Origin: Desulfobulbaceae bacterium BRH_c16a | GTDB lineage: Bacteria > Desulfobacterota > Desulfobulbia > Desulfobulbales > Desulfocapsaceae | Assembly (NCBI GenBank): GCA_000961725.1 | Contig: LADS01000049.1 | Location: forward strand, 1-64,000 | DNA: 64,000 nucleotides | Reading direction: 5' to 3' | In this document: in pieces, positions 5,252 to 44,545 of the stretch | Numbering within the stretch: the first letter of the stretch is position 1 | How the letters are laid out: each line of letters begins with the position of its first letter | Notes under the pieces: model-generated | Database searches by the model: none | The model's input: the letters and a program-made list of their open reading frames with translations, nothing else | What the model was told of the DNA's origin: nothing | Position numbers and translations under genes: made by a program

Positions 5252-6043
5252 ATGTCTTCTTCCGGACAATCTCCCGGCCACCGCCCCTCGGGTCTCCTGG
5301 CCGACCGAATTCTCGATTGCAGTGCGACCATGGCCTGCTGGGCCTGGTTTACCCTCGGTTTTATCCTGTTCTTTTCCTGGCGCTATCTCGCCTATGCGCT
5401 GTTTGTTAAAAATCCGGAGATTCAGTTCCAGCGGCTGAATTCTCTTTTTTACCGGATTTTTTTTCGCGTGGTAAGCGTCACCGCGCCGCGTCAGAAAATT
5501 GAAATCGATGAACGGATAGCCGCCATAAAATCTTCAGTGATAGTCTGCAATCACCTCTCCTACCTCGATCCATTGTTGCTGATCGCCCTCTTCCCGCGGC
5601 ACAAGACTATTGTAAAAACCCGATTTTTCGGCACCCCGATCTTTGGCTGGATGATTACCAAATCGGGGTACCTCCCCGCCACAGGCGAAGGCCGTTTTTC
5701 CGGGTTGATGATCGCGCAGATGGACACAATGGCGCAGTATCTCAAAGACGGCGGCAATCTCTTCATCTTTCCGGAAGGGACCAGGAGCCGCGACGGAAAA
5801 ATCGGCGAGCTGAACAAGGGCGCGTTCAAGATTGCCCGGATGTGCAGCGCGCCTCTCTATGTTCTGCAACTTCGTAATACCGACAACCTTTTTACTCCAG
5901 GCAAATTTCTATTTAATACCAGGGTACACAACACCATCGGAGTTAAAATTATCGAACACATCGAACCGGATTATCAAAAAAATCCCCCCTCCTCCGCTGA
6001 ACTTCTGCAACAGGTGCAGCGAGCATATATTAAGGCACAGTAA
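5252..6043 (+). CDS. PlsC-type 1-acylglycerol-3-phosphate acyltransferase
   Basis: The 263-residue protein has a membrane-associating N-terminal helix (about 28-50), the HX4D catalytic motif as NHLSYLD (His101, Asp106), and FPEGTRSRDGK near residue 171 for phosphate binding. Family members move an acyl chain from ACP or CoA to a glycerol-phosphate-type hydroxyl at the inner membrane. Located 18 bp after the ketosynthase and 5 bp before a radical SAM gene, it is probably translationally coupled in the operon. Aryl polyene and related clusters also contain such acyltransferases, thought to attach the chain to a lipid anchor. Its acceptor here is unknown. Confidence 0.88.
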   Translation: MSSSGQSPGHRPSGLLADRILDCSATMACWAWFTLGFILFFSWRYLAYALFVKNPEIQFQRLNSLFYRIFFRVVSVTAPRQKIEIDERIAAIKSSVIVCNHLSYLDPLLLIALFPRHKTIVKTRFFGTPIFGWMITKSGYLPATGEGRFSGLMIAQMDTMAQYLKDGGNLFIFPEGTRSRDGKIGELNKGAFKIARMCSAPLYVLQLRNTDNLFTPGKFLFNTRVHNTIGVKIIEHIEPDYQKNPPSSAELLQQVQRAYIKAQ

Positions 6044-6048
6044 CTGCG

Positions 6049-7071
6049 ATGCAGATATACAATCTTGAGTTTTCAGAGGAGGAAGTCCGCGAGGCCGTGG
6101 CTGCGGGCCGCCTGCTTTCCATGGAGATGGAATTCAGCCGGGTCTGCAATTTCCGCTGCTCCTACTGCTATGTCGATGAAAAGATCGAATGCAGAAATGA
6201 ACTTTCCCGTCAGGAAATCAAGGACGTCATCCTGCAGGCAAAAGCCATGGGAGCACGAAAAATCATCATCCTCGGCGGAGAACCGTCTATTTATCCGCAT
6301 CTTGTAGAAATGATTCGCTTTATCGGCAAAGAAGGGCTGAAAATCGAGATGTTCACCAATGGCTCCGGAATCGATAAAGACCTTGCGGCTGTTCTGGCTG
6401 AGGAAAAGGTACGGATTGCCTTGAAACTCAATTCACGGAAGGAGCACATTCAGGACCAACTGGCGGGAAAGAAAGGAGCATTTCAGATAATCGACAAGGC
6501 GCTCGCCTCCTTGAAAGAGGCAGGCTACCCGTCCCAGAATCTGTTCCTGGCAATCAGCACGGTAATCTGCCGGCAAAACATCAAAGAATTACCGGCGATG
6601 TGGCAATGGCTTCGCGAGGAAAATATCGAACCATTTTTTGAAGTTATCACTCCCCAGGCACATGCCTTGAAAAACAGCTGGCTGCACGTCGATCCGCGGG
6701 AATTGAAAGACCTCTTCACCGAGCTCTCGACAATCGACCAGGAAAAATTCGATCGCAACTGGGAGCCTCAGCCGCCACTGGTCGGCAACAGGTGTATGCG
6801 CCATCAGGTCTCCTGCCTGGTGACCGCAATTGGCGAAGTCATGCCCTGTGTCGGCGTCACCATCCCCCTCGACAATATCCGCAGCAACAGGCTGGCCGTT
6901 ATCCTGAAAAACAGTGAAGTGATCAACAATCTCAAGAATTACCGGATGACGATCAAGGGCCCGTGCAGAGTTTGTGAAAAAGCGGCCGAGTGTTACGGTT
7001 GCCGGGGGGCAGCCTACCAGCTCACCGGTGATTATCTGGCCTCGGATCCCACCTGCTGGCGTTTGCTTTGA
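6049..7071 (+). CDS. Radical SAM enzyme with SPASM-like C-terminal Cys cluster
   Basis: The 340-residue protein has the 4Fe-4S motif CNFRCSYC (Cys33, Cys37, Cys40), a GGEP strand for SAM binding, and a C-terminal region rich in Cys (NRCMRHQVSC, MPCVGV, GPCRVCEKAAECYGC, DPTCW) typical of SPASM/twitch auxiliary clusters. SPASM proteins usually modify peptides or perform dehydrogenations; here the neighbours are ACP, ketosynthase and acyltransferase, so a lipid or ACP-bound substrate is possible. It is the last gene of the operon. The other radical SAM genes of the window have a different C-terminal layout. Confidence 0.88.
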   Translation: MQIYNLEFSEEEVREAVAAGRLLSMEMEFSRVCNFRCSYCYVDEKIECRNELSRQEIKDVILQAKAMGARKIIILGGEPSIYPHLVEMIRFIGKEGLKIEMFTNGSGIDKDLAAVLAEEKVRIALKLNSRKEHIQDQLAGKKGAFQIIDKALASLKEAGYPSQNLFLAISTVICRQNIKELPAMWQWLREENIEPFFEVITPQAHALKNSWLHVDPRELKDLFTELSTIDQEKFDRNWEPQPPLVGNRCMRHQVSCLVTAIGEVMPCVGVTIPLDNIRSNRLAVILKNSEVINNLKNYRMTIKGPCRVCEKAAECYGCRGAAYQLTGDYLASDPTCWRLL

Positions 7072-17096: not shown

Positions 17097-17097
17097 C

Positions 17098-18319: not shown

Positions 18320-18343
18320 TCGTCTTATACATCGATCAACTTT

Positions 18344-19165: not shown

Positions 19166-19178
19166 TGCCCCCTCCTTG

Positions 19179-28563: not shown

Positions 28564-29763
28564 CTACCCTGAATTCCCAATGTTCAAGGAGTCTTCAAGC
28601 AATTTTCCGATATCCCCGGCGAGCACCTCGGCCTCCCCACGGTCAAAACGGACGGCACGTTCGGCATAGCGGTGGCAGTAGCGGCAATCCTCGCAGTAGG
28701 TTTCCGAGCAGCGGATTTTCCGGAATCCCGCGAGAAAATCCGTTAATTCGGCATTATCGATGACAAGATCAAGGGCTAAAAGTCGACGTCGCAGTTTCAG
28801 CATGCGCAGCATGAGCCGGCGTTCCTCCTTGCCGTAGTGCCGCATTCGCTCACGCACCTGCTCGTCTATATCACTGTGGAAGCCGGCCGGATCGCCGAGC
28901 ATCTCAAGCGACAGGATATCCAGAAGATTCCCTTCGTAGCTCCGGTCGGCATACGCTCCGGCGGCGCGCAGCAGCCAGGCCGTAGACCTGGAACGATCGA
29001 TAATCTTGAATTCATCGAAGCCCAGGGCTTCATAGACATGAAGATCTTCGGGACGAATCCACCGACTCATCAGCAGGAGCTCCGGGTGAAGCAGGCGACG
29101 ACGCGTACACTGCCAGAGGTAGAAATCGAGAAAAAAACTCGCCTGGCCGGTGTTTTGCGCCAGCTGGGAGGCATGTCCCACGCTGCATGCATGTTCTGCA
29201 AGGTAGTGACAGTTGTAGATGCACGAGACGTTGACAAACAGCTGCATCCCGCACGACAGCCCGGAACGGATTTTGCCGAGCATGTTGAAATCCCGGTTGA
29301 ACTCGCTGTAGGGGATAATCAGCGGATCGACCCCGAGAGCTTCCTGATACTTCAGCCTGGAGAGGTTGGTTGGCCAGCTCAGCACGCTGCCGCGAATTGC
29401 CAGATGGGGAAAATTACGGCGCACCAGTGAGAGGACGGCGAGATTGGCGATCGAGACACTGTCGACGCCAATCTCGACAAGTTGGCCGACAAAGTTCAGT
29501 ATTTGATTTTTCCCTTCGGCTGTTTGCTCAAGGTTGCCGAGACAGGGGGCATTGATAAGGTAACAAAATGACAGTTCCCGGTCATGGGCCGCACGAATGT
29601 AGGCTACAGCGGAGTCCCAGTCGACGGATGGCACGACCATCCCGGCCCTGCCTCCTCCCACTATATCGAAAGGAAGCTTGGCATAGATCGAAGTTACCTC
29701 CGGGATTTCCGTTAGACCTTCCAGCAACTCCATATCCCAATTTGCCGCAACGCTCAGTTTCAT
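28564..29763 (-). CDS. U32-type protein with Cys clusters (UbiU/UbiV or YhbU-like)
   Basis: The 399-residue protein has the TIM-barrel-like U32 layout: early strand MKLSVAANWD, YCYLINAPCLGN, NLAVLSLVRRNFPHLAIRGS and the Cys-rich region FVNVSCIYNCHYLAEHACS, followed by LWQCTRRR and a C-terminal CSETYCEDCRYC. The Cys set could ligate a 4Fe-4S cluster, as in UbiU/UbiV, which support oxygen-independent hydroxylation. It is on the minus strand downstream of the methyltransferase gene, from which it is separated by the 88-bp palindromic element. Whether it belongs to the adjacent biosynthetic cluster is open. Confidence 0.75.
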   Translation of the reverse strand: MKLSVAANWDMELLEGLTEIPEVTSIYAKLPFDIVGGGRAGMVVPSVDWDSAVAYIRAAHDRELSFCYLINAPCLGNLEQTAEGKNQILNFVGQLVEIGVDSVSIANLAVLSLVRRNFPHLAIRGSVLSWPTNLSRLKYQEALGVDPLIIPYSEFNRDFNMLGKIRSGLSCGMQLFVNVSCIYNCHYLAEHACSVGHASQLAQNTGQASFFLDFYLWQCTRRRLLHPELLLMSRWIRPEDLHVYEALGFDEFKIIDRSRSTAWLLRAAGAYADRSYEGNLLDILSLEMLGDPAGFHSDIDEQVRERMRHYGKEERRLMLRMLKLRRRLLALDLVIDNAELTDFLAGFRKIRCSETYCEDCRYCHRYAERAVRFDRGEAEVLAGDIGKLLEDSLNIGNSG

Positions 29764-29897: not shown

Positions 29898-30578
29898 TCA
29901 GGCGCCTTGGTCCAGATACCCGTGAACGGCGAACTGGAAAGGCGAGGCCATGGTGAGAGTGAGTTTTCCCGTCAGCTTTGCCTGCTGTAATTGAGCGGCT
30001 ATCTCGTCCAGGGTATATGCGGCACGGAGCGAGAGCAGCATATCCTGGCGCAGCAAGGCAGGGGCGCCGGGTACGTATGTATCGATTATATTTTCAGCCG
30101 ATTCTTCGCTGGCCGGGCGCAGCAGGTCGATAACCAGAACTGCGGCATGAGGCAGACTGTATTTATTGACGGCATACCACAAAACCATGGGATCGGCGAG
30201 GTGGTGGAGAAAACTGTGGGAGATAACTGCCTCGTAGCGCTCGCGGGGCAGAGAAAAATTGTCCGGCAGGATGCCATGAAAAAGACGAACACGATCCTCC
30301 AGGCCTTCGCGCCGTACGGCATTTCTACCGAATTCCAGCATATGGGGAGCGCCGTCCACGCCATGTATCTCGCACTGGGGAAAAAGTCCGGCCAGGCGCA
30401 GAGGGATGGTGGCCGGGCCGCAGCCAAGATCGAGGATGGCGTCTTTTGGTACGAACTTGCGGAAAAACTTTCGAAAATTCTGAATAAAAAGCCAATAACC
30501 GTTGTCCAGCCATGCCCCCGCGTAGGCGGCGACATGCTGTGGGTCATCCATAAGTTCCGGTTCTGGAATTCGGTTCAT
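29898..30578 (-). CDS. SAM-dependent class I methyltransferase
   Basis: The 226-residue protein has the class I motif I LDLGCGPATIPLRLA (about residues 50-64), motif II region GVDGAPHMLEFGR and a VISHSFLHHL motif typical of small-molecule methyltransferases. The start at 30578 is chosen because AAGGAAGG precedes it. It is divergent from the main cluster and inside the pair of inverted 88-bp elements, so it may share the cluster's regulation. Aryl polyene and flexirubin clusters often contain methyltransferases that modify the aryl head group; that role is an inference here. The substrate is not identifiable from sequence. Confidence 0.8.
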   Translation of the reverse strand: MNRIPEPELMDDPQHVAAYAGAWLDNGYWLFIQNFRKFFRKFVPKDAILDLGCGPATIPLRLAGLFPQCEIHGVDGAPHMLEFGRNAVRREGLEDRVRLFHGILPDNFSLPRERYEAVISHSFLHHLADPMVLWYAVNKYSLPHAAVLVIDLLRPASEESAENIIDTYVPGAPALLRQDMLLSLRAAYTLDEIAAQLQQAKLTGKLTLTMASPFQFAVHGYLDQGA

Positions 30579-31153: not shown

Positions 31154-31483
31154 ATGGAATTAACCAAGATAACCGCATCCGTTGCAGCTGAAAGCACTTC
31201 TTCTTGGTTCTCCGGCCACTTTCCCAACAATCCGATTCTGCCTGGAATTGCCCAGTTAAAAATGGTCGCCGATCTCATCGCCAAACCCGGAGGTGGTAAT
31301 GTTTACATAACGGGTTTGAGCCGGGTCAAGTTCAGAAAGATAATAAAGCCGGGCGAAAAGCTCGATATTCTGGTCACATGCAGTAATGTAGAAAATCAAT
31401 ATTTGTTCAAGATCACCAGCGGGGACGAAGATGTCTGTTCCGGCAAAATGCTTTTCACCCAAACCGAAATTGCAAATTCATGA
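31154..31483 (+). CDS. FabZ/ApeI-like 3-hydroxyacyl-ACP dehydratase, hotdog fold
   Basis: The 109-residue protein carries GHFPNNPILPGIAQLK, the hotdog dehydratase motif with catalytic His22. The acid residue that FabZ has in its following helix (as in LIIEAL) is not evident; LKMVADL is found instead, which resembles the shorter ApeI-like proteins of aryl polyene clusters. It would dehydrate 3-hydroxyacyl-ACP to trans-2-enoyl-ACP. Its stop overlaps the ACP start by 4 bp (ATGA), so translation is coupled. It is the first gene of the 12-gene operon. Confidence 0.8.
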   Translation: MELTKITASVAAESTSSWFSGHFPNNPILPGIAQLKMVADLIAKPGGGNVYITGLSRVKFRKIIKPGEKLDILVTCSNVENQYLFKITSGDEDVCSGKMLFTQTEIANS

Positions 31484-31746
31484 GTAACGATATCAACCAG
31501 ACCATAACTCGAATCTCTGAGATCATCATCAATGAACTCAAGCTTGAAGATGTCACTCCCGAAACCTTTAATGCCGACCTCGATTTAGTTGACGAGGTGG
31601 GGGTCGACTCCATGGACCTGGCGACCGTTGCCCTGGTTCTGAGAGATGAGTACGGAATACGAATCGACGAAGACGATTATCCGAAACTGACGACTGTCCG
31701 CATCATTGCCCAGTACATCATCGACAAACAGAACAGCAACGAATAA
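31480..31746 (+). CDS. Acyl carrier protein
   Basis: The 88-residue acidic protein has the phosphopantetheine site GVDSMDLATV (Ser44). It is coupled to the dehydratase gene by a 4-bp overlap and to the next radical SAM gene by TAATG. Its sequence differs strongly from the ACPs at 3712 and 37637, so each may carry different intermediates (for example starter, chain or final product). It is a typical small discrete ACP of a type II system. Confidence 0.9.
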   Translation: MSNDINQTITRISEIIINELKLEDVTPETFNADLDLVDEVGVDSMDLATVALVLRDEYGIRIDEDDYPKLTTVRIIAQYIIDKQNSNE

Positions 31747-32801
31747 TGTCTGCCCAGCAACCGCACTACAAGTTCTCCGATATAATTGCAGATCCGCTGA
31801 TCCGGGAGCGTTGGGAAAAGGTTCGCCGCTATTTTTTTCTGCGGGAATCGACCTATGACATGAGCAACCGCTGTAATATTCGTTGCGAAGGTTGTTATTA
31901 TTTCACCGGTGAAAAACAATTTGCCGCGGAAAATAACGACGAAAAATCCTGGCGGCAGCTTCTTCAATCGGAAAAAGAGCGCGGCATAACCTTTGCCGTC
32001 CTGGCCGGCGCAGAACCCTCACTGGTGCCGCAGCTGTGCGAGGTCTGCTTCAGGGAGATCCCCCTGGGCGCTATCGCCACCAACGGCCTGAAAACGATTC
32101 CGCGCGAGATCGATTACCGAATCCACATCTCGGTCTGGGGAAATGACCAGACCAGTCAGATCATCCGCAAGGCTCCGAACATGCTGGCCCGGCAAATAGC
32201 CAACTACAAAGACGATCCCAGGGCGGTATTCGTCTACACCTTCACACCGGTTAACATTGACGAGGCTCTGGAAGTAACAGAACTGCTCGCAGACAACGGT
32301 CAGCACATTACCTTCAACATGTTTTCCGCACCGGTCGGCTACCAGGGCCATCTCCGCCATACCCCCGAAACCCTGCAAAAAACGCGGGAGATCATGAGCA
32401 GACTGCTGACGGAATATCCACACACTGTGCTCTTCTCAACCTATAATATCGTTGCCCATACCGAAAAACAGGCCTTGCATGAGCTTTTTTCCTGCTCCTA
32501 TCCGCGAATGAATCCCTCCACGGACATCGGACTCGGCAGATCATTCAGGCAGTATCGTACGGATCTGCAGTGGGATCGTGATGCAGCCTGCTGCGTGCCG
32601 GATACGGATTGCGACGACTGTCGGCATTATGCCGCGGGCAGTGCCGTGGTCACCGCCAGAATGTACCGGCATGCCACAGATCCTGTGACTTTTTCCGCAT
32701 GGCTTGACTATGTAGATACGTATCTTGCCGTCTGGGTCAGAGGATACGATAAAGGGCAAAACCTCTGTAACACCTTTATCATTCCGCCTCCAAAGAACTA
32801 G
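31746..32801 (+). CDS. Radical SAM enzyme, paralogue 1
   Basis: The 351-residue protein has CNIRCEGC (Cys43, Cys47, Cys50), AGAEPS near the glycine-rich SAM loop, and a C-terminal DCDDCRHYAAG with two further Cys. It shares the layout and the phrases NRCNxRCxGC, (F/V)AAExN and DxxSW/DKW with the next gene, so the pair arose by duplication. The next Cys CCVPD and CDDC could bind an auxiliary cluster. It is translationally coupled to the ACP gene, so an ACP-bound substrate is likely. Reaction unknown; hydrogen abstraction on an acyl chain is a hypothesis. Confidence 0.85.
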   Translation: MSAQQPHYKFSDIIADPLIRERWEKVRRYFFLRESTYDMSNRCNIRCEGCYYFTGEKQFAAENNDEKSWRQLLQSEKERGITFAVLAGAEPSLVPQLCEVCFREIPLGAIATNGLKTIPREIDYRIHISVWGNDQTSQIIRKAPNMLARQIANYKDDPRAVFVYTFTPVNIDEALEVTELLADNGQHITFNMFSAPVGYQGHLRHTPETLQKTREIMSRLLTEYPHTVLFSTYNIVAHTEKQALHELFSCSYPRMNPSTDIGLGRSFRQYRTDLQWDRDAACCVPDTDCDDCRHYAAGSAVVTARMYRHATDPVTFSAWLDYVDTYLAVWVRGYDKGQNLCNTFIIPPPKN

Positions 32802-32808
32802 TATACTT

Positions 32809-33807
32809 ATGAAAACAGTCAGTTCCCTCCTCGATGAACACTGGTATGAGCGTTATAAGAAAATTTCAAGGCTCAACATCCGCAGCTCCATTTACGATGT
32901 GACCAACCGCTGCAACCTGCGGTGCAAGGGGTGCTTCTTTTATTCCTCCGGCGAGCACAAAGTGGCCGCCGAGGAAAACGACATAGACAAATGGCATGGT
33001 TTTATCGAAAAGGAAATGGCGCGGGGAGTCAACCTGGCGATCCTGATCGGCGGCGAACCCACCCTCTGCCTGGATCGGATTGAGGCCTTTTACAAGAAAT
33101 TGCCCACCTTCTGCGCCACCAATGGTCTGATCAAGGTCCCCAGGGATCGCTTTCCCGACTTGATGGTCGGCATCTCCCTGTGGGGCGATGCCGAGGATGA
33201 AAAAATTCTGCGCGGCAAAGATACGTTCAAGATTTCCAGCGGCAACTACGCAGGCGATCCCCACGCATACTACCTCTATACCATTACCCCCAAACAGCTC
33301 GGCAAAACGGAAAAAATCATCCGGAAAATTCGCGACGTCGGCCTCAAGGTGCACATGCAGCTCCTGTCCAACGACGAAGAAGTCGACGGTTTTTCGTGGC
33401 AGCCGGACGAACTTATAGCGGTGCGCGAAGAAATGGACGGCATGCTGGACAGCTACCCGGAGACGGTTATTTCCTCGAAATATTACCACGAGGTGATTAC
33501 CACCGGCAAAATGCTGGGACGGTCGTTCGGCTGGATGGAATGCCCTTCGGTTACAGAGCCCATCGACAACCGGGAGCCCAAACCAAAACGATTGATAGGG
33601 TTTATTCGCTGGTCATCCGAACTGCAGGCCATGCATCGCTGCTGCACCTCGGAAACCCGCGACTGTTCCACCTGCAAGGATGGCGCCGCCCATATGAGCT
33701 GGGTAATGGTCAACAAGCGGGCTCATATCAAAACCGCCAAGGATCTGCAGAACTGGATCGAGGTCTACGAAATGTTTGCCAAGCTGTATCAATTTATTCC
33801 CTGGTAG
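32809..33807 (+). CDS. Radical SAM enzyme, paralogue 2
   Basis: The 332-residue protein (ATG at 32809) has CNLRCKGC (Cys35, Cys39, Cys42) and GGEPTLC for SAM binding. C-terminal CCTSETRDCSTCKDG matches the auxiliary-cluster Cys of the neighbour. It lies 7 bp downstream of paralogue 1 and 4 bp upstream of a ketosynthase gene. The two paralogues are similar along their whole length but too diverged to be a recent copy, so they probably act on different substrates or positions, or as a pair. Homologous pairs beside FabF-type enzymes are known from proposed ladderane clusters, as I recall. Confidence 0.85.
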   Translation: MKTVSSLLDEHWYERYKKISRLNIRSSIYDVTNRCNLRCKGCFFYSSGEHKVAAEENDIDKWHGFIEKEMARGVNLAILIGGEPTLCLDRIEAFYKKLPTFCATNGLIKVPRDRFPDLMVGISLWGDAEDEKILRGKDTFKISSGNYAGDPHAYYLYTITPKQLGKTEKIIRKIRDVGLKVHMQLLSNDEEVDGFSWQPDELIAVREEMDGMLDSYPETVISSKYYHEVITTGKMLGRSFGWMECPSVTEPIDNREPKPKRLIGFIRWSSELQAMHRCCTSETRDCSTCKDGAAHMSWVMVNKRAHIKTAKDLQNWIEVYEMFAKLYQFIPW

Positions 33808-33811
33808 CGCT

Positions 33812-35062
33812 ATGGGAAAAAAAGATGCGGTCATTGTCGGCTACGATGCCATTTCCCCATTGGGAAGCGACCTGCAGGCACAGTGGCAGAATGCCCTCGA
33901 AGGCAAAAGCGGCATCGGCCCCCTCACCCGCTTCTCTCTGTCTGAAGGATTTCCTGTCTGCATTGCCGGCCAGGTTCCGGATATCGACGACGAAAAGTAC
34001 TCTTTTCTTTCTGCCCGGCATCAAGCGGCCTGGACTTCTCCCGTCTTCAAATACTCCATGCTCTCGGTTGTCAGGGCTCTTGAACGGAGCAGGATAGTAC
34101 TCTCCCCTGAGATCGCACTTCGCACGGCGGTAACCTACAGCTCGGCGATAGGCGGCCTGGACGCGGTCCTGGCTGCCGACAGACGGCTGCAATCAGAGAA
34201 CAGGCTTCCACCTCCTTACACCAACCCCAACGCCTGCGTCAGCATGATCGGGGGCAAAATAGCCATTGAAACGGGAGCAAAGGGGCCCATTACCTCTACC
34301 ATCTCTGCCTGTGCCACCGGCCTCACCTCGATGATTATCGGCTCGATGTTTCTGGCCCAGAACCGAGCCGATATCGCCATCTGCGGCGCCGTCGATTTTG
34401 CCCTGGTCGAACCGATTGTCGCCGGGTTCTATACCATGAACGGCGTGTACTCTCCCAAGGAAGGCCGGGAACACGACCCGCCGGCAATGGCCAGCAGGCC
34501 GTTTTCCACAGATCGACGCGGGTTTGTCCTTTCCGAAGGTGCCGGTGCGGTTATTCTCGCCACCCGGGAATTTGCCGAGGCCCATGGTCTCCACTACAGC
34601 ACCGAACTGGCCGGCTGGGGGATGACCTCGGATGCCCACCACTTTGTCGCCCCCTACTTCGACACCATCAGACAGTGCATGCAGAATGCCCTTGCCGATG
34701 CCGGGATTAGCCCTGCCGACATTGCGGCAATCAATGCCCATGCCGCATCCACCCGGGTTGGCGACAAGGTCGAATACGATGCCATAAAAGCGATCTTTGG
34801 CGACAAGCTGCCCCCTGTCAGTGCCAATAAATCCCTTATCGGCCATGCCATGGGCGCCTCCAGCGTGATCGAAACCATCTTTTCATTGCGGGGCATGGAA
34901 GAGAGTATCCTGCCTCCGACCATCAACTACACCCCCGATCCGGAAATCGACATCGACTGTGTGGCGAAAGGCAAGAGGTCTCTCGAACAGGAATTTATTC
35001 TGAAGAATTCCTTTGGCTTCGGAGGCTGTAATGCCTGCGCGGTTTTTAAAAAATCAAATTAA
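33812..35062 (+). CDS. Beta-ketoacyl-ACP synthase (FabF-like)
   Basis: The 416-residue enzyme has Cys167 in STISACATG, His in NAHAASTRVGD and His in KSLIGHAMGASS, so the triad is complete. The second motif has HAA where FabF has HGT, a mild departure. Start at 33812 (ATG after GCGCT). It lies directly upstream of a second ketosynthase gene, 9 bp apart. Both contain active-site Cys, so this is not a KS/chain-length-factor pair of the classical type. It should extend ACP-bound chains by two carbons with malonyl-ACP. Confidence 0.93.
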   Translation: MGKKDAVIVGYDAISPLGSDLQAQWQNALEGKSGIGPLTRFSLSEGFPVCIAGQVPDIDDEKYSFLSARHQAAWTSPVFKYSMLSVVRALERSRIVLSPEIALRTAVTYSSAIGGLDAVLAADRRLQSENRLPPPYTNPNACVSMIGGKIAIETGAKGPITSTISACATGLTSMIIGSMFLAQNRADIAICGAVDFALVEPIVAGFYTMNGVYSPKEGREHDPPAMASRPFSTDRRGFVLSEGAGAVILATREFAEAHGLHYSTELAGWGMTSDAHHFVAPYFDTIRQCMQNALADAGISPADIAAINAHAASTRVGDKVEYDAIKAIFGDKLPPVSANKSLIGHAMGASSVIETIFSLRGMEESILPPTINYTPDPEIDIDCVAKGKRSLEQEFILKNSFGFGGCNACAVFKKSN

Positions 35063-35071
35063 AATCCACTT

Positions 35072-36337
35072 ATGAAGGCACCGAAAAACAGAAGAGTCTA
35101 TGTTGTCGGCTATGACGCTGCGACTGCTCTCGGCAACACCTTTGCCACAACCTGGCAAGGTGCCGTGGACGGCCTCGCCGGTTTTCGAAGACTCAGCCGT
35201 TGCGAGTCCTCGAGCCGCAGCAATGTGGTTGGCGAGATACCGGACTGGGACCCGGCCACGTTTTCGTATGTCGACCGCAAGGAGGCTTCTCTCTGGAACG
35301 CATCCTACGTCTTTCTCACCATGGAAGTCTGCCGGAGAGCGCTTCTTCATGCCGGGCTTGAAATAAACGCAGAAACCGGCCCCAGAACCGGTTGCCTGAT
35401 CGGCTCGGCCCTCAACGGTGTCGATTCGTACCGGATCGCCATGGACAATTACGTCAATAACGGCCCATTAAAGGTCAGTCCCTATCTGCTGCCCAATGTC
35501 TGTGCCAACCTGCCGGCCGGAAAAGCCGGGATGCTCATGGGATTCACCGGGCCTATCTTTTCTCCCCAGGGTGCCTGCGCCTCGGGCAACCATGCCATCG
35601 GCATCGGGGCGCGGATGATTCGCGACGGCGATTGTGATTTTGTCCTGGCCGGCGGGGTCGAGACCTGTATTATCCCGGAAATAATCCAGGGCTTTTCCAA
35701 CATGCTGGCCACCATCAAGGTTGGCCCGAAAGACCGGGCGGCAGAAGATCCTACCCAGGCCTCACGTCCCTTCAGCCTTGACCGCAAGGGATTTGTCCTT
35801 GCCGAAGGTGCCGGGGTGCTGGTGCTGGCCGCCGAAGATGCCATGCGCTCCCTTGGCCTGACGGCAAAAGCCGAGATTGCCGGCATCGGCTGGAATTCCG
35901 ATGCCCATCATTTTACCCGGCCCAATGCCACGACCATCATCCGCGCCATGGAGGATGCCATTGACGATGCGGAAATCACGCCCGGCGATATCGGTGCGGT
36001 GAATGCCCACGGCACTTCAACGCCCACAGGCGACAGCACGGAGGTCAAGTGCCTGCGCGCCGTGTTCGGCAAACACATCGAAAAAATTCCAGTTTCGGCA
36101 AACAAATCCCAGGTCGGCCATTCTCTCGGCGCATCTGCCGCTATCGAGGCTACTCTTGCTATTGAGGCCATGGGCCGGGGAATCGTTTTGCCGACGGTCA
36201 ACCATATTCCCGACCCTGAATTCAGTGATATCGATGTGGTCCCCAATAATGCCCGCAAGCATCCACACGAATTCGTCCTCTCCAATTCTTTCGGCTTTGG
36301 CGGAACCAACTGCTGTATCGTTTTTCGAGGAATGTAA
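35072..36337 (+). CDS. Second beta-ketoacyl-ACP synthase (FabF-like)
   Basis: The 421-residue enzyme has Cys169 in SPQGACASGN, His in NAHGTSTPTGD and His in KSQVGHSLGAS. The active-site context GACASG resembles FabF-like and APE-type synthases. It is diverged from its upstream neighbour, so they probably work on different chain lengths or oxidation states. Its stop overlaps the thioesterase start (TAATG). Together the two enzymes suggest a homodimer pair or a heterodimer, as found with aryl polyene ketosynthase pairs, but here neither has lost its Cys. Confidence 0.93.
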   Translation: MKAPKNRRVYVVGYDAATALGNTFATTWQGAVDGLAGFRRLSRCESSSRSNVVGEIPDWDPATFSYVDRKEASLWNASYVFLTMEVCRRALLHAGLEINAETGPRTGCLIGSALNGVDSYRIAMDNYVNNGPLKVSPYLLPNVCANLPAGKAGMLMGFTGPIFSPQGACASGNHAIGIGARMIRDGDCDFVLAGGVETCIIPEIIQGFSNMLATIKVGPKDRAAEDPTQASRPFSLDRKGFVLAEGAGVLVLAAEDAMRSLGLTAKAEIAGIGWNSDAHHFTRPNATTIIRAMEDAIDDAEITPGDIGAVNAHGTSTPTGDSTEVKCLRAVFGKHIEKIPVSANKSQVGHSLGASAAIEATLAIEAMGRGIVLPTVNHIPDPEFSDIDVVPNNARKHPHEFVLSNSFGFGGTNCCIVFRGM

Positions 36338-36816
36338 TGCGACCCAGACCTTTCATCCCGGAATTTCTCGACAAGCCAGGCTATGTCAGAGATGTCAACA
36401 GCGGCAAGATCTGGCATCGCTGCGAAATGCGTACCCTCTATGTCGATACCGATCGCTCCCAGGTGGTCTATCATGCCAACTATTTGAGATATTTTGAGTT
36501 CGGCAGGGCTGAACTCATGCGGGCAGCAGCCTACCCCTACAAAAAAATCGAGGAAAGCGGCTATATCTACCCGATCATCAAGACTGAACTGAACTACTAT
36601 TCGCCGCTCTTCTATGACGATCTGATGTACATTCACACCCGGCCGGCCAGGATAGAGATGGTCAAACTGCAATTCGATTATTTGATCACCAGGGCCGATA
36701 GCGGCGAGATCTGCTGTACAGGTTTTACCAAACACTGCGCCGTGAACGGCAAGCACATCCCGGTCGAGATAGACGAACAAACCGTCAACCTCTGGAACGA
36801 GTTTCCTCGTTCATGA
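36337..36816 (+). CDS. Hotdog-fold thioesterase (4HBT/YbgC-like)
   Basis: The 159-residue protein has VDTDRSQVVYHANYLRYFEFGR, the signature of 4-hydroxybenzoyl-CoA-type thioesterases, where the Asp in the TD..VVYHANY segment is the likely catalytic residue region. It would release or trim an acyl-ACP or acyl-CoA. Its stop overlaps the next gene by 4 bp. Aryl polyene clusters also carry a 4HBT-like thioesterase. The N-terminal extension (RPRPFIPEFLDKPGYVRDVNSG) is longer than in YbgC. Confidence 0.88.
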   Translation: MRPRPFIPEFLDKPGYVRDVNSGKIWHRCEMRTLYVDTDRSQVVYHANYLRYFEFGRAELMRAAAYPYKKIEESGYIYPIIKTELNYYSPLFYDDLMYIHTRPARIEMVKLQFDYLITRADSGEICCTGFTKHCAVNGKHIPVEIDEQTVNLWNEFPRS

Positions 36817-37631
36817 GTGGCAATCGCCTCCCCTGCACCATCAGCGTGCAACCCTGGTTCAAAGACCATTATGTCGGCCAGACCATCGTGTTCCCCGCCG
36901 TTGAAACCATGCTTTTTCTGGCGGCCGAGTGCGTAGCGGCCCATCCTGAAACCGATATCAGGATAATGGAAGATGTTCGCTTTGGCAGGTTTCTCGAGAT
37001 ACCGCCAGCTGCGGCGACAGTTGCGGTTCTGGTAGAATGTGCCGCAACCGATGGACGTATACAGGCGAAGCTCCTCAGCCGCATGCAATTCAAGGCAATG
37101 GCCAGAAGCAAGGAGCATGGCGAGATCTTTTTTTCCAGCCAGGGCAAGACAGACGACCCTCCCCTTCCAAATATTGATCCGCTGCCGCCTGCCGACCCCA
37201 TAGCCGAGGTCGACACGGCGCACCTGTATCGTGAACTGGTCCCCTTCGGTCCCTGCTATCATACGCTGCAGGAAAGCCTTTTTCTTACGGAAATCGAGGC
37301 GTGGGGAAAATTGAAGGCTCCCGATTTTCCCTGTATCTACCCTGTTCAGGATATCATCGGTTCGCCATTTCCGCTGGACGGGGCTCTGCATGCAGCCTGT
37401 GTGCTGGGCCGGCAATCTGTCCAATTTGTGCCTTTTCCCGTGGGCTTTTCCAGACGAACGGTCAGCCGCCCTACCCTACCGGGCGGCAGTTACCTGACCA
37501 GGGTGATATTGACAGCCCGGACCCGTGACGAACTGGTTTTTGATCTGATTATCTTCAACGACGATGGACTTGTATACGAAACTGTAACCGGCCTGCGCAT
37601 GCGCGATGTGAGCAGGGCTATGAAGAAATAA
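36813..37631 (+). CDS. Stand-alone PKS-type dehydratase, double hotdog
   Basis: The 272-residue protein shows DHYVGQTIVFP (HX3GX4P, His19) in its first half and PFPLDGALHAA (Asp189, His193) in its second half. These are the catalytic His and Asp of modular polyketide and polyunsaturated fatty acid synthase dehydratases (DxxxQ/H). The two halves form the double hotdog of about 270 residues. As a separate gene beside discrete ACPs and ketosynthases, it could dehydrate 3-hydroxyacyl-ACP, in parallel with the FabZ-like enzyme at 31154. It overlaps the thioesterase gene by 4 bp and is 5 bp upstream of an ACP. The family call rests on these two motifs and length. Confidence 0.72.
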   Translation: MSGNRLPCTISVQPWFKDHYVGQTIVFPAVETMLFLAAECVAAHPETDIRIMEDVRFGRFLEIPPAAATVAVLVECAATDGRIQAKLLSRMQFKAMARSKEHGEIFFSSQGKTDDPPLPNIDPLPPADPIAEVDTAHLYRELVPFGPCYHTLQESLFLTEIEAWGKLKAPDFPCIYPVQDIIGSPFPLDGALHAACVLGRQSVQFVPFPVGFSRRTVSRPTLPGGSYLTRVILTARTRDELVFDLIIFNDDGLVYETVTGLRMRDVSRAMKK

Positions 37632-37636
37632 TTGAT

Positions 37637-37918
37637 ATGACTGAAGCTATGGAATCTTTTGAACGAGAATTACTGGAACTGATCTGTACAACCTGCAACC
37701 TGACCGATGTCGACATGGACAAAGTTGCCAGCAACGATCCCCTGATCGGCCCCGAGTCTCCTCTTGGCACCGACTCCCTGGACGCCCTGGAGATAGCAGT
37801 TACCATTCAGCAGAAATATGGCGTACGAATGGATTCGGAAAATACCAGCAGGATCGTCCTGCAGTCTCTTGCGACACTTGCCGAGTATATCAAAAAAAAT
37901 GAGCCGGTGTGTAACTGA
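37637..37918 (+). CDS. Acyl carrier protein
   Basis: The 93-residue protein has the 4'-phosphopantetheine site LGTDSLDALEI (Ser47), with the helix II continuing AVTIQQKYGV, close to ACPs of polyunsaturated and aryl polyene systems. It is 5 bp after the dehydratase and 33 bp before the ammonia-lyase. It could hold the aryl starter or the growing polyene. It is the third ACP of the window; the set of three with different sequences suggests division of labour. Confidence 0.9.
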   Translation: MTEAMESFERELLELICTTCNLTDVDMDKVASNDPLIGPESPLGTDSLDALEIAVTIQQKYGVRMDSENTSRIVLQSLATLAEYIKKNEPVCN

Positions 37919-37951
37919 CGCGTAGACACCCTGGAACAGTCGAAAAAAAAG

Positions 37952-39547
37952 ATGACTACCACACCAGCAATAAACCTTTCCGGCAACGATCTCACGTATC
38001 AAGACATAGTTGCAATCGGCATGGGCAACAAGAAAGTCACCCTTGACGAGAAAGCCTTGGCCCGCTGCCTCGCCTCCAGAACTTTTCTCGAACAGGCGGT
38101 CAAAGACAAGAAGATCATCTACGGGGTCAACACTTCCTATGGCCCGATGTGTAATAAAATTGTCAACGACCGTGATATCGAGACACTGCAGAAAAACCTT
38201 ATTATCAGCCATGCGGCGGGACTGGGAGAACCCCTTCGTCCCTCTATCGCTCTTGCCGTTCTCGCCGTCCGTTTAAACACCCTGGCCAAGGGCTATTCCG
38301 GCGTTCGCCTTGAACTGCTCGAATTGATGCGCGACATGATCAATTCCGGCCTCGCCCCCTACATCCCGGAATGCGGCAGCGTCGGCGCCTCGGGCGATCT
38401 TATCCATCTCGCCCATATGTCGCTTGCCGTGATCGGCATGGGCAAAGTGTATCTTCATGACGAACTCATGGATGCGGGCGAAGCCTACAGAAGAACCGGC
38501 CTCACGCCCCTTGTCTTAAGCTGCAAGGAAGGCCTGGCGCTGATGAACGGTACGGCGGCGATGACGGCCATAGCCGCCTTTGCTCTTTCCGGGGCGGAGA
38601 GATTGTACAATGTAGCCTGTGTCAACGCAGCGTTTGCCGTCGAAATATTCGGCGGCATCGACGATGCCTTCGATGCCGACCTGCATGCAGTAAAACCGCA
38701 TCCCGGCCAGATTCGGGTGGCCCGAACCATCAAGCAGCTGTATAAGGGGACCGGCAATATTACCCTCAGGGATGAACTGCATGAAAGGATCAGAAAGCAG
38801 GGCAATGGCGACGACACCCCGGTTTTCGAGACAAACATCAATGTCCAGGATGTCTATTCTCTCCGCTGCACCCCGCAGATTCTGGCCCCCGTACGTGAGA
38901 CGCTGGATTATGTCGCTCGCACGGTTGAAACGGAAGCCAATTCATCCAATGACAACCCTATCGTTATTCCCGAAAAAAACAAGATCATCCACGGCGGCAA
39001 CTTCCATGGCCAAAGCATCAGCTTTGCCATGGACATTCTCTGCATAGCCATTTCCACCCTCTGCAATCTTTCCGAGAGAAGACTCAACAAACTGCTCGAC
39101 AAAAACCTCAATGAGGGCTTACCCGAGCATCTGATTCCGGGAGAAGTCGGCCTGACAATGGGATTTATGGGAGCCCAGTATCTCGCCACCTCCGCCACAG
39201 CCGAAAACAGGGGACTTGCCGCGCCAATGAGCGTCAATTCCATCTCATGCAATGCCTCCAACCAGGATGTCGTCAGCATGGGCACCGTTGCCGCACGTAA
39301 AGCATTTCGTCTGATCGGCAATGCCAAGCATGTTTTGACCCTGGAAATACTAGCCGATCTCCAGGCCTTATCTTTCCGGAATGCCGATAAACTTGGCCAT
39401 GCAACCGGTAGGATCCATGAAATACTCTCGAAAGATTTTCAAGTATACGATGACTCGAGGATTTTCCATGACGATCTTGTGACCTTTCGCAAACTGATCT
39501 TTTCCAGCCCGGTTTTTGAAGACCTGTCCGTCTATTTTTCGGAATGA
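37952..39547 (+). CDS. Aromatic amino acid ammonia-lyase (HAL/TAL family)
   Basis: The 531-residue enzyme forms its MIO cofactor from Ala146-Ser147-Gly148 in GSVGASGDL. Other family motifs are YGVNTSYGPM (with the catalytic Tyr), SNDNPI and HGGNFHG. The selectivity position reads SH (Ser86-His87), as in histidine ammonia-lyase, but flavobacterial tyrosine ammonia-lyases of flexirubin clusters also have SH and share HGGNFHG and YSLRCTPQIL. No other hut gene is here. I therefore favour tyrosine or phenylalanine as substrate, giving a (hydroxy)cinnamate starter for the synthases; histidine stays possible. It overlaps the B12 radical SAM gene by 4 bp. Confidence 0.88.
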   Translation: MTTTPAINLSGNDLTYQDIVAIGMGNKKVTLDEKALARCLASRTFLEQAVKDKKIIYGVNTSYGPMCNKIVNDRDIETLQKNLIISHAAGLGEPLRPSIALAVLAVRLNTLAKGYSGVRLELLELMRDMINSGLAPYIPECGSVGASGDLIHLAHMSLAVIGMGKVYLHDELMDAGEAYRRTGLTPLVLSCKEGLALMNGTAAMTAIAAFALSGAERLYNVACVNAAFAVEIFGGIDDAFDADLHAVKPHPGQIRVARTIKQLYKGTGNITLRDELHERIRKQGNGDDTPVFETNINVQDVYSLRCTPQILAPVRETLDYVARTVETEANSSNDNPIVIPEKNKIIHGGNFHGQSISFAMDILCIAISTLCNLSERRLNKLLDKNLNEGLPEHLIPGEVGLTMGFMGAQYLATSATAENRGLAAPMSVNSISCNASNQDVVSMGTVAARKAFRLIGNAKHVLTLEILADLQALSFRNADKLGHATGRIHEILSKDFQVYDDSRIFHDDLVTFRKLIFSSPVFEDLSVYFSE

Positions 39548-40908
39548 GCATGGAACGTCTTGTAACGTCTGCACATTGTCTTCTCATTTCCGCCAACCGG
39601 ATGGTATCGCCCTATCCGGTATACCCCATTGGCATTGCGCATATCATGGGAGCCCTGCAACACCATGGCCACCGGGCGGATCATTTCGATGTGCTGGCGT
39701 CCGGAGGATATCCTCTGCTGGAAAAACGTCTCAGGGAAAATCGCTATGATGTTATCGGGGTCTCCATCAGAAACATCGATACCGTCGACAGCACATCGCC
39801 ATTGGAATTGCTTGCCGACATTACCGAAGTGATGCACTGCCTCCGAAAATTATCCAAGGCACCGGTTGTGCTCGGCGGGCCGGGATTCTCCATTATGCCG
39901 GAGCGGCTTCTCGAGTATCTCAATGCCGATTACGGGATTGTCGGAGAAGGTGAAGCGGCCTTTCCCCAGCTGGTAGACAGAATTATGGCAGGCGAGCAAC
40001 CCGGGCAAAAGCTGTTTTCCAGGAGTCTTGCAAAATTCCCCGACTGCCGGCCTCTGTATTCTTCCGAAGTAACAACCTACTATGTCAGCCATGGCGGAAT
40101 GCTGAATGTGCAGACCAAACGCGGCTGTGCCCACGGCTGCATCTATTGTTCCTACCCGACCATCGAAGGAAGAAAACTGCGATACCGCGATCCGGCAAGC
40201 GTTGTCGAAGAGATTAAAAGTCTTTCCGAACAATTCGGTGCCAGATATATCTTTTTTACCGACGGGGTGTTCAACGATCCCGATGATCGGTATCTTGAAA
40301 TCGCCGAAGAACTTATCCGGGCGGGAAGCTCTCTGCCCTGGTGTGCGTTTTTCCGCCCGCAAAACCTTAGCGGAGATACGCTCAGATTGTTGAAAAGAAG
40401 TGGGATGGCCGCCATGGAGTTGGGCACCGACGCTTCAACCGATACTACCCTGGCCGCGCTCGGCAAAGGATTTACCTTTGCCGAAGTGCTTGCAGTAAAT
40501 GATGCTCTTGTCGCCGAATCAATCCCCTGCGCCCATTTTATCATGTTCGGCGGCCCCGGGGAAACAGAGGAGACCATCGAGCAAGGCTTGATCAACATCG
40601 AAAAATTGAAAAGATCGGTGGTCTTCGCCTATCTCGGCATTCGCATAATGCCCGGCACGAAGCTCCATACGCGCGCCCTTCGCGAAGGATCGATCACCGT
40701 CGACACCGATCTGGTGCGGCCCATCTTCTACTACTCTTCGCTTGTTGACAGGGATTTTATCGACAGCCGGCTGCGCCTGGCATTTCGCGATAAAGGGAAC
40801 CGAGTCTTTCCCGTGGCGGAACGTGAACACTTCATCCCCCTGCTGCATCAGCTGGGACATGACGGGCCGTTATGGGATCTGCTGATTGATAATCATCCGA
40901 GCCAGTGA
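39544..40908 (+). CDS. B12-binding radical SAM enzyme (lipid-biosynthesis type)
   Basis: The 454-residue protein has an N-terminal Rossmann-like B12-binding domain (about 10-160, with YPIGIAHIMGALQHHGH and VVLGGPGFS) lacking the DxHxxG base-on motif. The radical SAM domain follows with CAHGCIYC (Cys195, Cys199, Cys202), FTDGVFN, and GGPGETEETI. Such enzymes methylate or rearrange unactivated carbons. It sits between the ammonia-lyase and a glycosyltransferase. Similar proteins in databases are called lipid-biosynthesis B12-binding/radical SAM proteins, as I recall. A methyl branch or ring closure on the chain is plausible. Confidence 0.85.
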   Translation: MSMERLVTSAHCLLISANRMVSPYPVYPIGIAHIMGALQHHGHRADHFDVLASGGYPLLEKRLRENRYDVIGVSIRNIDTVDSTSPLELLADITEVMHCLRKLSKAPVVLGGPGFSIMPERLLEYLNADYGIVGEGEAAFPQLVDRIMAGEQPGQKLFSRSLAKFPDCRPLYSSEVTTYYVSHGGMLNVQTKRGCAHGCIYCSYPTIEGRKLRYRDPASVVEEIKSLSEQFGARYIFFTDGVFNDPDDRYLEIAEELIRAGSSLPWCAFFRPQNLSGDTLRLLKRSGMAAMELGTDASTDTTLAALGKGFTFAEVLAVNDALVAESIPCAHFIMFGGPGETEETIEQGLINIEKLKRSVVFAYLGIRIMPGTKLHTRALREGSITVDTDLVRPIFYYSSLVDRDFIDSRLRLAFRDKGNRVFPVAEREHFIPLLHQLGHDGPLWDLLIDNHPSQ

Positions 40909-40909
40909 T

Positions 40910-42046
40910 GTGAAAATTCTCATTGTCATACATGCCTGCAATCAGGGTTCAACCCTTCCTGCCGTGGCGAATGCAGCTCTTGCCACCGGCTATGACCTGC
41001 TGGTAATCGACGACGGCAGCGACGATGACTGTCTTCTTGCCATTGCCGGACTGCCATGCCGGACCATCAGGTTCGAAGAGCATAGAGGCAAGGCTGCGGT
41101 ATTGTTCTACAGTGCCGGGCAAGCGGCAGAATCCGGCTACGACGCCATTGTTACAATCGATGGCGACGGTCGACATAATCCGGCGGACATCCCTCTTCTC
41201 GCGGCAAAGGCGAAAAAACACCCAACCCCTTGCCTGGTCATTGGATCCCGGCAAGCGGCTTCAGTTGCAAGTTTCTGGGTTCGGCTGGAATGCGGCCTTG
41301 AAGTGCCTGACACCGAAAGCAGTTTCCGGCTGTACCCGGTAAAAGAACTGCTGGCGGTAAAATTCAGCCGAAGCGATTCCTGCTATGCCATAGAAACCAT
41401 AGTTCAGCTCGCCTGGGCAGGCGTTCAGGTGAGTTCCGTCCCGCTTACCGTCTCCTGCCCGTCTGCCGACGAGCGAAGAGGTCTTTTTCCAGCCACCCGG
41501 AAAAATCTCGGCCTGCTCCGGCTGCACACTCGGCTGGTAACGAGAAGACTGCTGCCATGGCCTCATAAAAAACTCATCGAAGAAGCACCGTTCCACCAAA
41601 AGATAAGCGAATCGGTCTCCCGTAATCCTCTCAAGGTACTCGGCAAAATCTGCAAGGAACATACCTCTCCGCTCTGGCTGGCAATGGCCGTCTGGGTCGG
41701 CATTTTCATGGGAGCGCTTCCCCTTTTTGCAATCCATACCATCGCCATCATCTATGTCACCCACAGACTCCATCTCAACAAAGTTGCAGCAGTTGCCGCC
41801 AGTCAGTTCTGCATGCCTCCCGTTGTGCCGGTTCTTTGCATTCAGATGGGATATTATCTCCGCAAGGGCGAATTGCTCCTCGATTTTTCCTGGCAGCGAT
41901 GGCTCCTCGAAATCCATGAACGTTTCTGGGAGTGGCTCATAGGCTCGTTGCTGATTGGTCCTCTTCTCGGTCTTATCGGCGCGGGAGTGATGTACTGGAT
42001 GGCGGCCGGGATACAGAACCGTAAGGAAAATAACGGAGATCGCTAA
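40910..42046 (+). CDS. Glycosyltransferase family 2 fused to DUF2062
   Basis: The protein (378 residues from GTG at 40910) has a GT2 domain (about 1-215: LLVIDDGSDD for nucleotide sugar, IDGDGRHNP as DXD motif, RLYP) and a C-terminal DUF2062 membrane region (about 260-370, hydrophobic helices around SPLWLAMAVWVGIFMG and ASQFCMPPVVP). GT2-DUF2062 proteins commonly transfer a sugar or similar group to a lipid carrier at the inner membrane. It closes the operon: the GTG lies 1 bp after the previous stop. The 88-bp element follows 13 bp after its stop. Confidence 0.85.
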   Translation: MKILIVIHACNQGSTLPAVANAALATGYDLLVIDDGSDDDCLLAIAGLPCRTIRFEEHRGKAAVLFYSAGQAAESGYDAIVTIDGDGRHNPADIPLLAAKAKKHPTPCLVIGSRQAASVASFWVRLECGLEVPDTESSFRLYPVKELLAVKFSRSDSCYAIETIVQLAWAGVQVSSVPLTVSCPSADERRGLFPATRKNLGLLRLHTRLVTRRLLPWPHKKLIEEAPFHQKISESVSRNPLKVLGKICKEHTSPLWLAMAVWVGIFMGALPLFAIHTIAIIYVTHRLHLNKVAAVAASQFCMPPVVPVLCIQMGYYLRKGELLLDFSWQRWLLEIHERFWEWLIGSLLIGPLLGLIGAGVMYWMAAGIQNRKENNGDR

Positions 42047-44429: not shown

Positions 44430-44545
44430 GTCCTTGTATTATTTGTATAAATCCTGCGACAAATACCCCGGCGGCCATCTCCCTCCAAACGTCCTGTTCT
44501 CCGACCGGTACTTTCGATCATGCGGAACGTCTTAAGGTAGTCTGA

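Follow-up and report, generated by a model that had tools for sequence, protein, structure and literature searches.

The gene clusters closest to the one described here are those for aryl polyenes (APEs), for flexirubins and, by proposal, for ladderanes. Among APE proteins, solved structures include ApeR (7F27) and ApeO-ApeC (7F28), both of A. baumannii, and ApeO-ApeC of X. doucetiae (6QSP), as given in passages of PMC8358021. For ladderanes, passages of Rattray 2009 (PMC2649909) single out the B12 radical SAM protein Kuste2803 and report that the ladderane candidate cluster of Kuenenia is syntenic with one in Desulfotalea psychrophila, which has no ladderanes but does have C31:8 and C31:9 hydrocarbons. 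Candidate genes expressed in E. coli yielded no new fatty acids, several of the proteins being insoluble or undetected, according to the part of Javidpour 2016 (PMC4790861) drawn on here. According to the literature passages we drew on, anammox bacteria have not been obtained as pure cultures. In this study we analysed positions 1 to 64,000 of contig C35 (LADS01000049.1) of Desulfobulbaceae bacterium BRH_c16a, a whole stretch to which we refer as the window; the assembly amounts to 6.5 Mb in 72 contigs and its bin is estimated to be 96.6% complete with 6.0% contamination. The subject is a block of twelve genes in this window. Our tentative reading, to which we give a little less than even weight, is that the block would be part of an anaerobic APE-type pathway of about 30 genes, in which an acyl chain is built on carrier proteins, fixed to a lipid anchor and exported towards the outer membrane. 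No description of the block was found in the titles, abstract openings and passages seen of the open-licence PMC literature on APEs and ladderanes, which does not amount to absence in print.

The block is composed of two modules: an eight-gene core, running from a FabA-like dehydratase (DH) to a polyketide synthase (PKS)-type DH, and a tail encoding an acyl carrier protein (ACP), a lyase, a B12 radical SAM enzyme and a glycosyltransferase. All twelve open reading frames lie on the plus strand between 31154 and 42046, at the coordinates given by an earlier sequence-only reading, and are as tightly coupled as that reading had claimed, with intergenic gaps, 5' to 3', of -4, -1, 7, 4, 9, -1, -4, 5, 33, -4 and 1 bp. 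They are the following.

31154..31483, + strand: FabA/FabZ-like (ApeI-like) single hot-dog DH, with which the core operon starts (Pfam FabA 32.5 bits, cut-off 23)
31480..31746, + strand: ACP1, acyl carrier protein (PP-binding, 35.9 bits)
31746..32801, + strand: rS1, radical SAM enzyme of an unnamed family, with CX3CX2C and a C-terminal CC-X5-C-X2-C
32809..33807, + strand: rS2, radical SAM paralogue of rS1, unnamed family
33812..35062, + strand: KS1, FabF-type ketosynthase (KS; TIGR03150 fabF 338 bits, cut-off of 494 not reached)
35072..36337, + strand: KS2, FabF-type KS (fabF 369 bits, below the cut-off)
36337..36816, + strand: YbgC/FadM-type 4HBT thioesterase (TIGR00051 84 bits, cut-off of 68.7 passed)
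36813..37631, + strand: PS-DH, double hot-dog PKS-type DH (PF14765 36.1 bits, cut-off 23.7)
37637..37918, + strand: ACP2, second ACP, opening the lineage-specific tail (PP-binding 27 bits; PRK09184 65.5 bits, cut-off 70)
37952..39547, + strand: MIO aromatic amino acid ammonia-lyase or aminomutase (PF00221 554 bits)
39544..40908, + strand: B12-binding radical SAM enzyme of the TIGR04072 (rSAM_ladder_B12) family (629 bits, cut-off 360)
40910..42046, + strand: GT2 glycosyltransferase fused to DUF2062 (PF00535 40.9 bits, PF09835 55.2 bits), with a GTG start at 40910 and a TTG at 40886 as a possible alternative

These families, assigned with Pfam and NCBIfam models, confirm the gene identities that had been proposed for the block, namely a lyase, two ACPs, two KSs, two types of DH, a thioesterase, a GT2-DUF2062 protein and radical SAM enzymes. 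In their translations KS1 and KS2 keep the Cys/His/His that we take to be the KS active site, in agreement with the sequence-only reading, and the lyase has the triad ASG, presumably its MIO triad. The nearest solved chains of KS1 and KS2 are ordinary FabF enzymes. PS-DH, in which His and Asp motifs are legible, has a single solved match, the PKS DH 6obv (E 1e-4).

More surprising than the lyase is the core, an eight-gene operon with two unnamed radical SAM enzymes that many anaerobes share, in most cases together with a ladderane-family B12 enzyme. Its order is FabA-like DH (FabZ), ACP1, rS1, rS2, KS1, KS2, thioesterase and PS-DH. The rS1 query gave a true match in 21 of 57 genomes, the window genome included, and three further matches below 24 bits. 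The core order is complete in 18 of the 20 relatives' loci; of the other two, one is truncated by a contig end (L049) and the other has rS1 without an adjoining rS2, which sits on another contig (L052). In a draw of 395 genomes of the phylum, an rS2 profile matched 29, in one case weakly, and 27 of the 29 rS2-bearing stretches (2.8-4.0 kb) also contain rS1. Among named genomes, 369 stretches matched rS2 patterns and 315 were confirmed as relatives, of which the best 80 were analysed, each count taking only loci whose contig extends far enough. In these named loci the neighbours of rS2 recur at 90-100%: rS1 in 70/70, ACP1 in 66/66, FabZ in 60/63, KS1 in 66/69, KS2 in 55/61, the thioesterase in 54/60 and PS-DH in 44/45. 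A relative of the window B12 enzyme lies within 6 kb upstream in 43 of 53. For the eight-gene core, these counts rule out a chance neighbourhood of fatty-acid genes. Conservation as one unit holds for the eight core genes and is not supported for all twelve, the lyase tail being lineage-specific.

Core-bearing taxa comprise Syntrophales (Smithella, Syntrophus), Desulfobacterales, Desulfobulbales, Desulfohalobiaceae, metagenome-assembled genomes (MAGs) of Spirochaetes and one Planctomycetota MAG. In Desulforhopalus sp. IMCC35007 and Desulfosarcina widdelii PP31, both of them named strains, the ladderane-named B12 family adjoins this conserved radical SAM/FabF operon, and the role of that family can therefore be approached in more tractable hosts. 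With the lyase, both strains give only matches of 36-37% identity.

rS1 and rS2 are paralogues, as the sequence-only reading had recognised, with 30-31% identity to each other. Both miss the Pfam Radical_SAM gathering score of 29.5 (23.5 and 28 bits, respectively), and no NCBIfam model came near its own cut-off with either protein. CX3CX2C and the four C-terminal cysteines are kept without exception in 40 aligned rS1 rows and 38 rS2 rows, and the AlphaFold2 (AF2) model of rS1 has a radical SAM fold (pLDDT 80.6). The rS2 relatives compared across orders are 68-94% identical to the window protein, which suggests an important function in anaerobes. The distance matrices of rS1 and rS2 are correlated (Mantel 0.701, 64 loci, 0/999 permutations as high), as are those of rS2 and KS1 (0.695, same loci number and 0/999 permutations), correlations that common descent alone can also yield. 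A bolder proposal, which we regard as a long shot, is that rS1 and rS2 form a heterodimer that would work without O2, activating unactivated C-H bonds in an acyl or aryl polyene chain carried on an ACP and coupling them by ring closure or cross-linking. Hundreds of anaerobic species would then produce envelope lipids of an undescribed class, cyclised or cross-linked and, in this lineage, with an aromatic cap, and the TIGR04072 enzyme would act in the matching step in ladderane bacteria. Four Planctomycetota genomes (L216-L219) have an rS2-like radical SAM protein of 30-35% identity with no adjoining core genes.

Close orthologues of the lyase (72-87% identity, >800 bits) occur in nine of 54 genomes, namely the window genome (G000), G001, G003, G005, G006, G009, G015, G031 and G032, and all but G031 also have rS1. 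The twelve-gene set as a whole was met in close relatives only: the entire order is present in G001, G005 (where the stretch cuts GT2) and G006, and G003 has it without GT2, core and tail being joined on one contig in these four genomes. In G009 the block lies on two contigs and ends at the B12 gene, PS-DH, ACP2, lyase and B12 gene being joined. In G031 (L112) and G015 (L115) the lyase, B12 and GT2 genes belong to another cluster, with an amine oxidase, KS, PlsC, LpxL, FabG and ApeP-like DH; in G015 this cluster shares a contig with the core and lies about 29 kb away from it. With the type found in L112, L115 and core-less clusters the window B12 enzyme has 49-61% identity, and with the type usually found upstream of the core 33-38%; it is the single TIGR04072 match over the cut-off in the window genome. 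From this pattern we infer that a lyase-B12-GT2 module, of the sort seen in ladderane-type clusters, may have taken the place of the usual upstream B12 enzyme of the core, with a change of starter unit. Among solved structures the B12 enzyme is nearest to the tryptophan C2-methyltransferase TsrM (6wte, 93 bits), and its radical SAM part matches the diol dehydratase AprD4 (55 bits). A 20 kb stretch of a relative (L116, G050:C53:68001-87999) holds six separate B12-binding radical SAM matches, with more along the contig.

In an alignment of twelve lyases, the window lyase and seven orthologues read NQD(V/I)VSMG where three hut-like copies (L065, L200, L201) read QEDHVSM or KEDHVSM. We take Gln for Glu at this imidazole/specificity site of HutH to mark tyrosine/phenylalanine rather than histidine enzymes. 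The window lyase would thus be a tyrosine/phenylalanine-type rather than a histidine-type MIO lyase or aminomutase. MIO-lyase-like stretches also occur in open frames of 1332-1444 aa (G006:C1:880920, G019:C1:3367696, G013:C21:61966), possible fusions.

Further genes of the supposed pathway lie elsewhere in the window genome. Four of them are found near the start of the window.

3712..3972, + strand: ACP3, sharing 84.9% identity with the ACP next to KS3 of L037
3989..5233, + strand: KS3, ApeR-like KS, 91% to its L033 counterpart
5252..6043, + strand: PlsC-type acyltransferase, like ApeD (AGP_acyltrn 74 bits, cut-off of 103 missed; a relative passes Pfam Acyltransferase)
6049..7071, + strand: radical SAM/SPASM enzyme, with 46-47% identity to its counterparts in three probable anammox clusters

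Others are on contig C25, some of them named via their relatives. Near its end are B12b, an ApeI-like DH, MMPL, LolA, an ApeP-like DH, a fused KS pair (KSKS), an ACP, a small protein, FabG, B12c, an AMP-ligase, FakA-DegV, GT2 and LpxL. With the L048 relative of the small protein, the ApeP model gives a weak score (20.9 bits, cut-off 27). Three radical SAM genes had been counted, and three there are in the block, an undercount for the pathway regions of this genome, which hold six such enzymes (rS1, rS2, SPASM, B12, B12b and B12c). The APE-type genes are thus split between C25, window 3.7-7.1 kb and window 31.2-42 kb, and are near-contiguous in some relatives. Upstream of the core, L033, L037, L039 and L179 have the AMP-ligase, FakA-DegV, GT2, LpxL-like, ACP, KS, PlsC and SPASM genes or a consecutive part of them, and L034, L035, L036 and L042 have them in part. 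L033 (G005) is contiguous from a B12 enzyme, AMP-ligase and FakA-DegV via KS3 and SPASM to GT2, L179 (Desulforhopalus sp. IMCC35007) has FakA-DegV through to the core on one stretch, and in G008, of the same genus, L039 and L119 place the AMP-ligase, FabG, KSKS and ParA-CHAD-PPK on the contig of the core. Window 2-406 looks by eye like the end of a transposase, which would account for the contig break.

The comparison with APE clusters follows the gene list in Table 1 of PMC8253772. The best solved match of KS3 is ApeR (7f27, 325 bits), followed by 4ewg (319 bits), FabB-type chains scoring about 225-230 bits; that of KSKS, on C25, is ApeO-ApeC, a KS and chain length factor (7f28 and 6qsp, 207 and 199 bits); and a DH on C25 passes the ApeP model (35.6 bits, cut-off 27). 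With the APE clusters of E. coli CFT073, X. doucetiae and A. baumannii the window genome further shares FabG, an AMP-ligase, several ACPs, a thioesterase, PlsC and GT2/LpxL transferases, LolA and an MMPL exporter. Since KS3 and KSKS are near APE enzymes and KS1 and KS2 near ordinary FabF, the backbone looks like that of an APE synthase to which the FabF/radical SAM core is an extra. Unlike those clusters, the window genome has its set spread over two contigs and three places, and it has in addition rS1, rS2, the SPASM and B12 radical SAM enzymes, the extra FabF pair, PS-DH, FakA-DegV and the MIO lyase of this lineage. Flexirubin clusters, with the tyrosine ammonia-lyase FlxA and LolA2, share an MIO lyase with KS, ACP and DH genes and a LolA2-like carrier; unlike FlxA, the window lyase misses the NF053541 cut-off (453 bits, cut-off 700). 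We know of no flexirubin maker with the rS1/rS2 module. The APE/flexirubin logic that the sequence-only reading had seen in the block is hence sound, several of the genes concerned being on C25.

Our best reading, drawn from these likenesses, is an APE-type pathway with a tyrosine/phenylalanine-type starter enzyme, an added radical SAM/FabF module and probably an envelope lipid as product. The lyase would convert tyrosine (or phenylalanine), as its residues suggest, to an arylacrylate such as 4-coumarate or, if it is an aminomutase, provide a beta-amino acid as starter, and the AMP-ligase of C25 would load the starter on an ACP. KS3, the ApeO-ApeC-like KS pair, FabG and the ApeP/ApeI-like DHs, whose kinships are those given above, would then extend the chain without enoyl reduction, giving a polyene. 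KS1-KS2, ACP1 and PS-DH, which are conserved together with rS1 and rS2, may perform a second extension step, and rS1/rS2 may carry out O2-independent C-H chemistry on the ACP-bound chain; both are guesses, as is C-methylation of ring or chain by the TIGR04072 enzyme. The thioesterase, the GT2, LpxL-like and PlsC-like transferases, LolA and MMPL would serve release, anchoring and export. As the sequence-only reading proposed, the product might carry rings, branches or unsaturation. The lyase-bearing variant offers a chemical handle for it in the form of a UV-absorbing aromatic end.

A number of observations weigh against this reading. No lyase was found within 9 kb downstream of rS2 in 45 named loci, and among 33 named loci with 9 kb on both sides only one has any lyase near the core (L181, Desulfobacterales bacterium GSL_GB14_8): a different aromatic-type lyase with the NQD motif and 34% identity, upstream of the core, which suggests independent recruitment. 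Since nearly all core operons have no lyase in their vicinity, the core has no need of it. In the same 33 loci the core seldom has APE-type genes close by either (AMP-ligase 5, KS3 5, LpxL 2, SPASM 2, MMPL 0, KSKS 14, FabG 15), so that the full gene set is mostly a feature of genus or family. Genes in one cluster, as is usual though not strictly defining for APEs, were not found in the window genome: the AMP-ligase, KS-chain length factor and export genes lie on C25, whose link to C35 rests on relatives, and the bin of the window genome has 6% estimated contamination. Several models fall short of their cut-offs, namely ApeI for the ApeI-like DHs (25.8 bits for the first gene of the block, and 25.4 bits; cut-off 28.5), 4-coumarate-CoA ligase, the best model of the AMP-ligase (100 bits, cut-off 334.7), flexirubin LolA2, the best of LolA (89 bits, cut-off 125), and curated fabF for KS1 and KS2. 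The two solved chains closest to the lyase are both aminomutases, AdmH (320.5 bits) and tyrosine aminomutase (319.9 bits); the latter shares SH and NQDVVSMG with the window lyase, AdmH does not, and the SH pair does not discriminate because the hut-like copies have it too. For these reasons both tyrosine specificity and plain lyase activity are tentative. The kinship of the B12 enzyme with TsrM is strongest in the B12 domain. As to rS1 and rS2, the rS1 model finds only generic radical SAM folds (BlsE, SuiB, viperin), the rS2 model is poor (pLDDT 59.5) and unfit for fold comparison, and profiles of both against solved structures give weak radical SAM matches only, the best being SkfB (38 and 23 bits). 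Because these matches are generic or weak, no reaction can be named for either enzyme.

The block could also contain two adjacent pathways, the core making a non-aromatic unusual fatty acid or polyene and the tail being an inserted fragment of a separate APE- or ladderane-like pathway. We consider this unlikely, although it would explain why nearly all core loci are without a lyase, why lyase, B12 and GT2 genes occur without the core in L112 and at a distance from it in L115, and why the window B12 enzyme is nearer to the core-less type. However, core and tail are kept together in G001, G003, G005 and G006, and from PS-DH to the B12 gene in G009, and the tail seems to replace a TIGR04072 enzyme rather than to add one. 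Since the window genome has one such match over the cut-off, core and tail probably share the B12 step.

A route to ladderane-like or polyunsaturated lipids of the kind that Rattray and colleagues proposed, with radical SAM enzymes closing rings in the chain or desaturating it, appears improbable to us. The link to ladderanes drawn by the sequence-only reading is real at the family level: the proposed anammox ladderane clusters (kuste3335-3352, kuste2803) and the Desulfotalea cluster share with the window genome a B12 enzyme probably of the TIGR04072 type, a close SPASM relative, an AMP-ligase, MMPL, GT2 and several KSs, and passages of PMC9902471 report antiSMASH 'ladderane' clusters in Desulfobacterota MAGs and in other non-anammox phyla. 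In 343 genomes drawn from the phylum of the genome of L148, 20 exceed the TIGR04072 cut-off and five have an rS2 relative at E 1e-15. HZS_alpha matched in 16 of 23 genomes tested, in 11 of them in frames of 809-831 aa and in five in frames of other lengths. We call the former 11 genomes probable anammox, which is a proxy, as distant HZS-alpha relatives occur in non-anammox bacteria according to the part of PMC12758564 consulted. All 11 carry TIGR04072-like genes at E 1e-60. Eight loci were fetched from five of these genomes. Three of them (L221, L223, L225) combine a PS-deacetylase, KS, AMP-ligase, SPASM, B12, MMPL, amine oxidase and GT2, the SPASM and B12 enzymes having 46-47% and 33% identity, respectively, to those of the window; of the other five, four have the B12 enzyme only and one adds an AMP-ligase match of 25%. 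Clusters of core-less relatives (L101, L102, L103, L107, L109) contain most of the anammox-locus set, without the PS-deacetylase.

Unlike the window genome, none of the 11 probable anammox genomes has an rS2 relative at E 1e-15. Conversely, the window genome differs from ladderane clusters in its added lyase, in the usual active sites of KS1 and KS2, where passages of PMC2649909 describe three Kuenenia FabB/F paralogues without the usual one, and in having no orthologue of the A-type (phytoene-desaturase-like) amine oxidase, for which the best match is 28 bits and only a distant pair on contig C54 is found, at 23-24% identity. Desulfotalea psychrophila, moreover, bears the syntenic cluster and lacks ladderanes, even if it has C31:8 and C31:9 hydrocarbons. 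Given the absence of rS2 from the probable anammox genomes and of a ladderane-type flavoprotein here, we reject membership among ladderane clusters and keep it as a working analogy; ladderanes are unlikely as the product. The C54 pair of amine-oxidase-family flavoproteins is part of L235 (G000:C54:4001-23999), where 6348-12024 on the minus strand also encodes a KS, an ACP, FabG and a FabA-like DH next to Tol/ExbBD-type genes, and it recalls the desaturase-like DP2405-DP2406 of Desulfotalea, named in a passage of PMC2649909.

A reading of the lyase as a HutH, set by chance among fatty-acid genes, is hardly credible: although the best single NCBIfam match is the histidine ammonia-lyase subfamily, the lyase misses the cut-offs of this model (509 bits, cut-off 524) and of a second HutH model (491 bits, cut-off 539), has Gln in place of Glu at the HutH specificity site, is joined to the B12 gene in relatives and is only 38% identical to the other lyase of the genome (C61:74097), which is HutH-like and adjoins a GntR-UTRA regulator, and the recurrence in named loci refutes the chance part. 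A grouping with HutH in hut operons, which the sequence-only reading had named as fatal to its proposal, is thus contradicted by both residues and place, no hut neighbourhood being found around the window lyase and the hut-like locus lying elsewhere in the genome.

As to neighbouring genes, a U32-family protein (28564..29763, - strand; PF01136 24.9 bits, cut-off 22.4) and a SAM methyltransferase (29898..30578, - strand; Methyltransf_25 48.8 bits) precede the block and recur together beside the core in four of the 20 relatives' loci (L035, L036, L040, L042). Some U32 proteins perform O2-independent ring hydroxylation, and the pair may modify the aromatic end. Further upstream, window 14460-20864 encodes an outer-membrane efflux/HlyD/DUF3302 set, PPK2 and a SulP-type permease. 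Downstream, window 42146-46940 holds a ParA-CHAD-(PPK) flank, with polyphosphate kinase PPK at 44727-46940. In L035, L107, L110, L113 and L119 the same flank stands beside quite different cluster versions, which gives the impression of a single chromosomal site with exchangeable lipid clusters.

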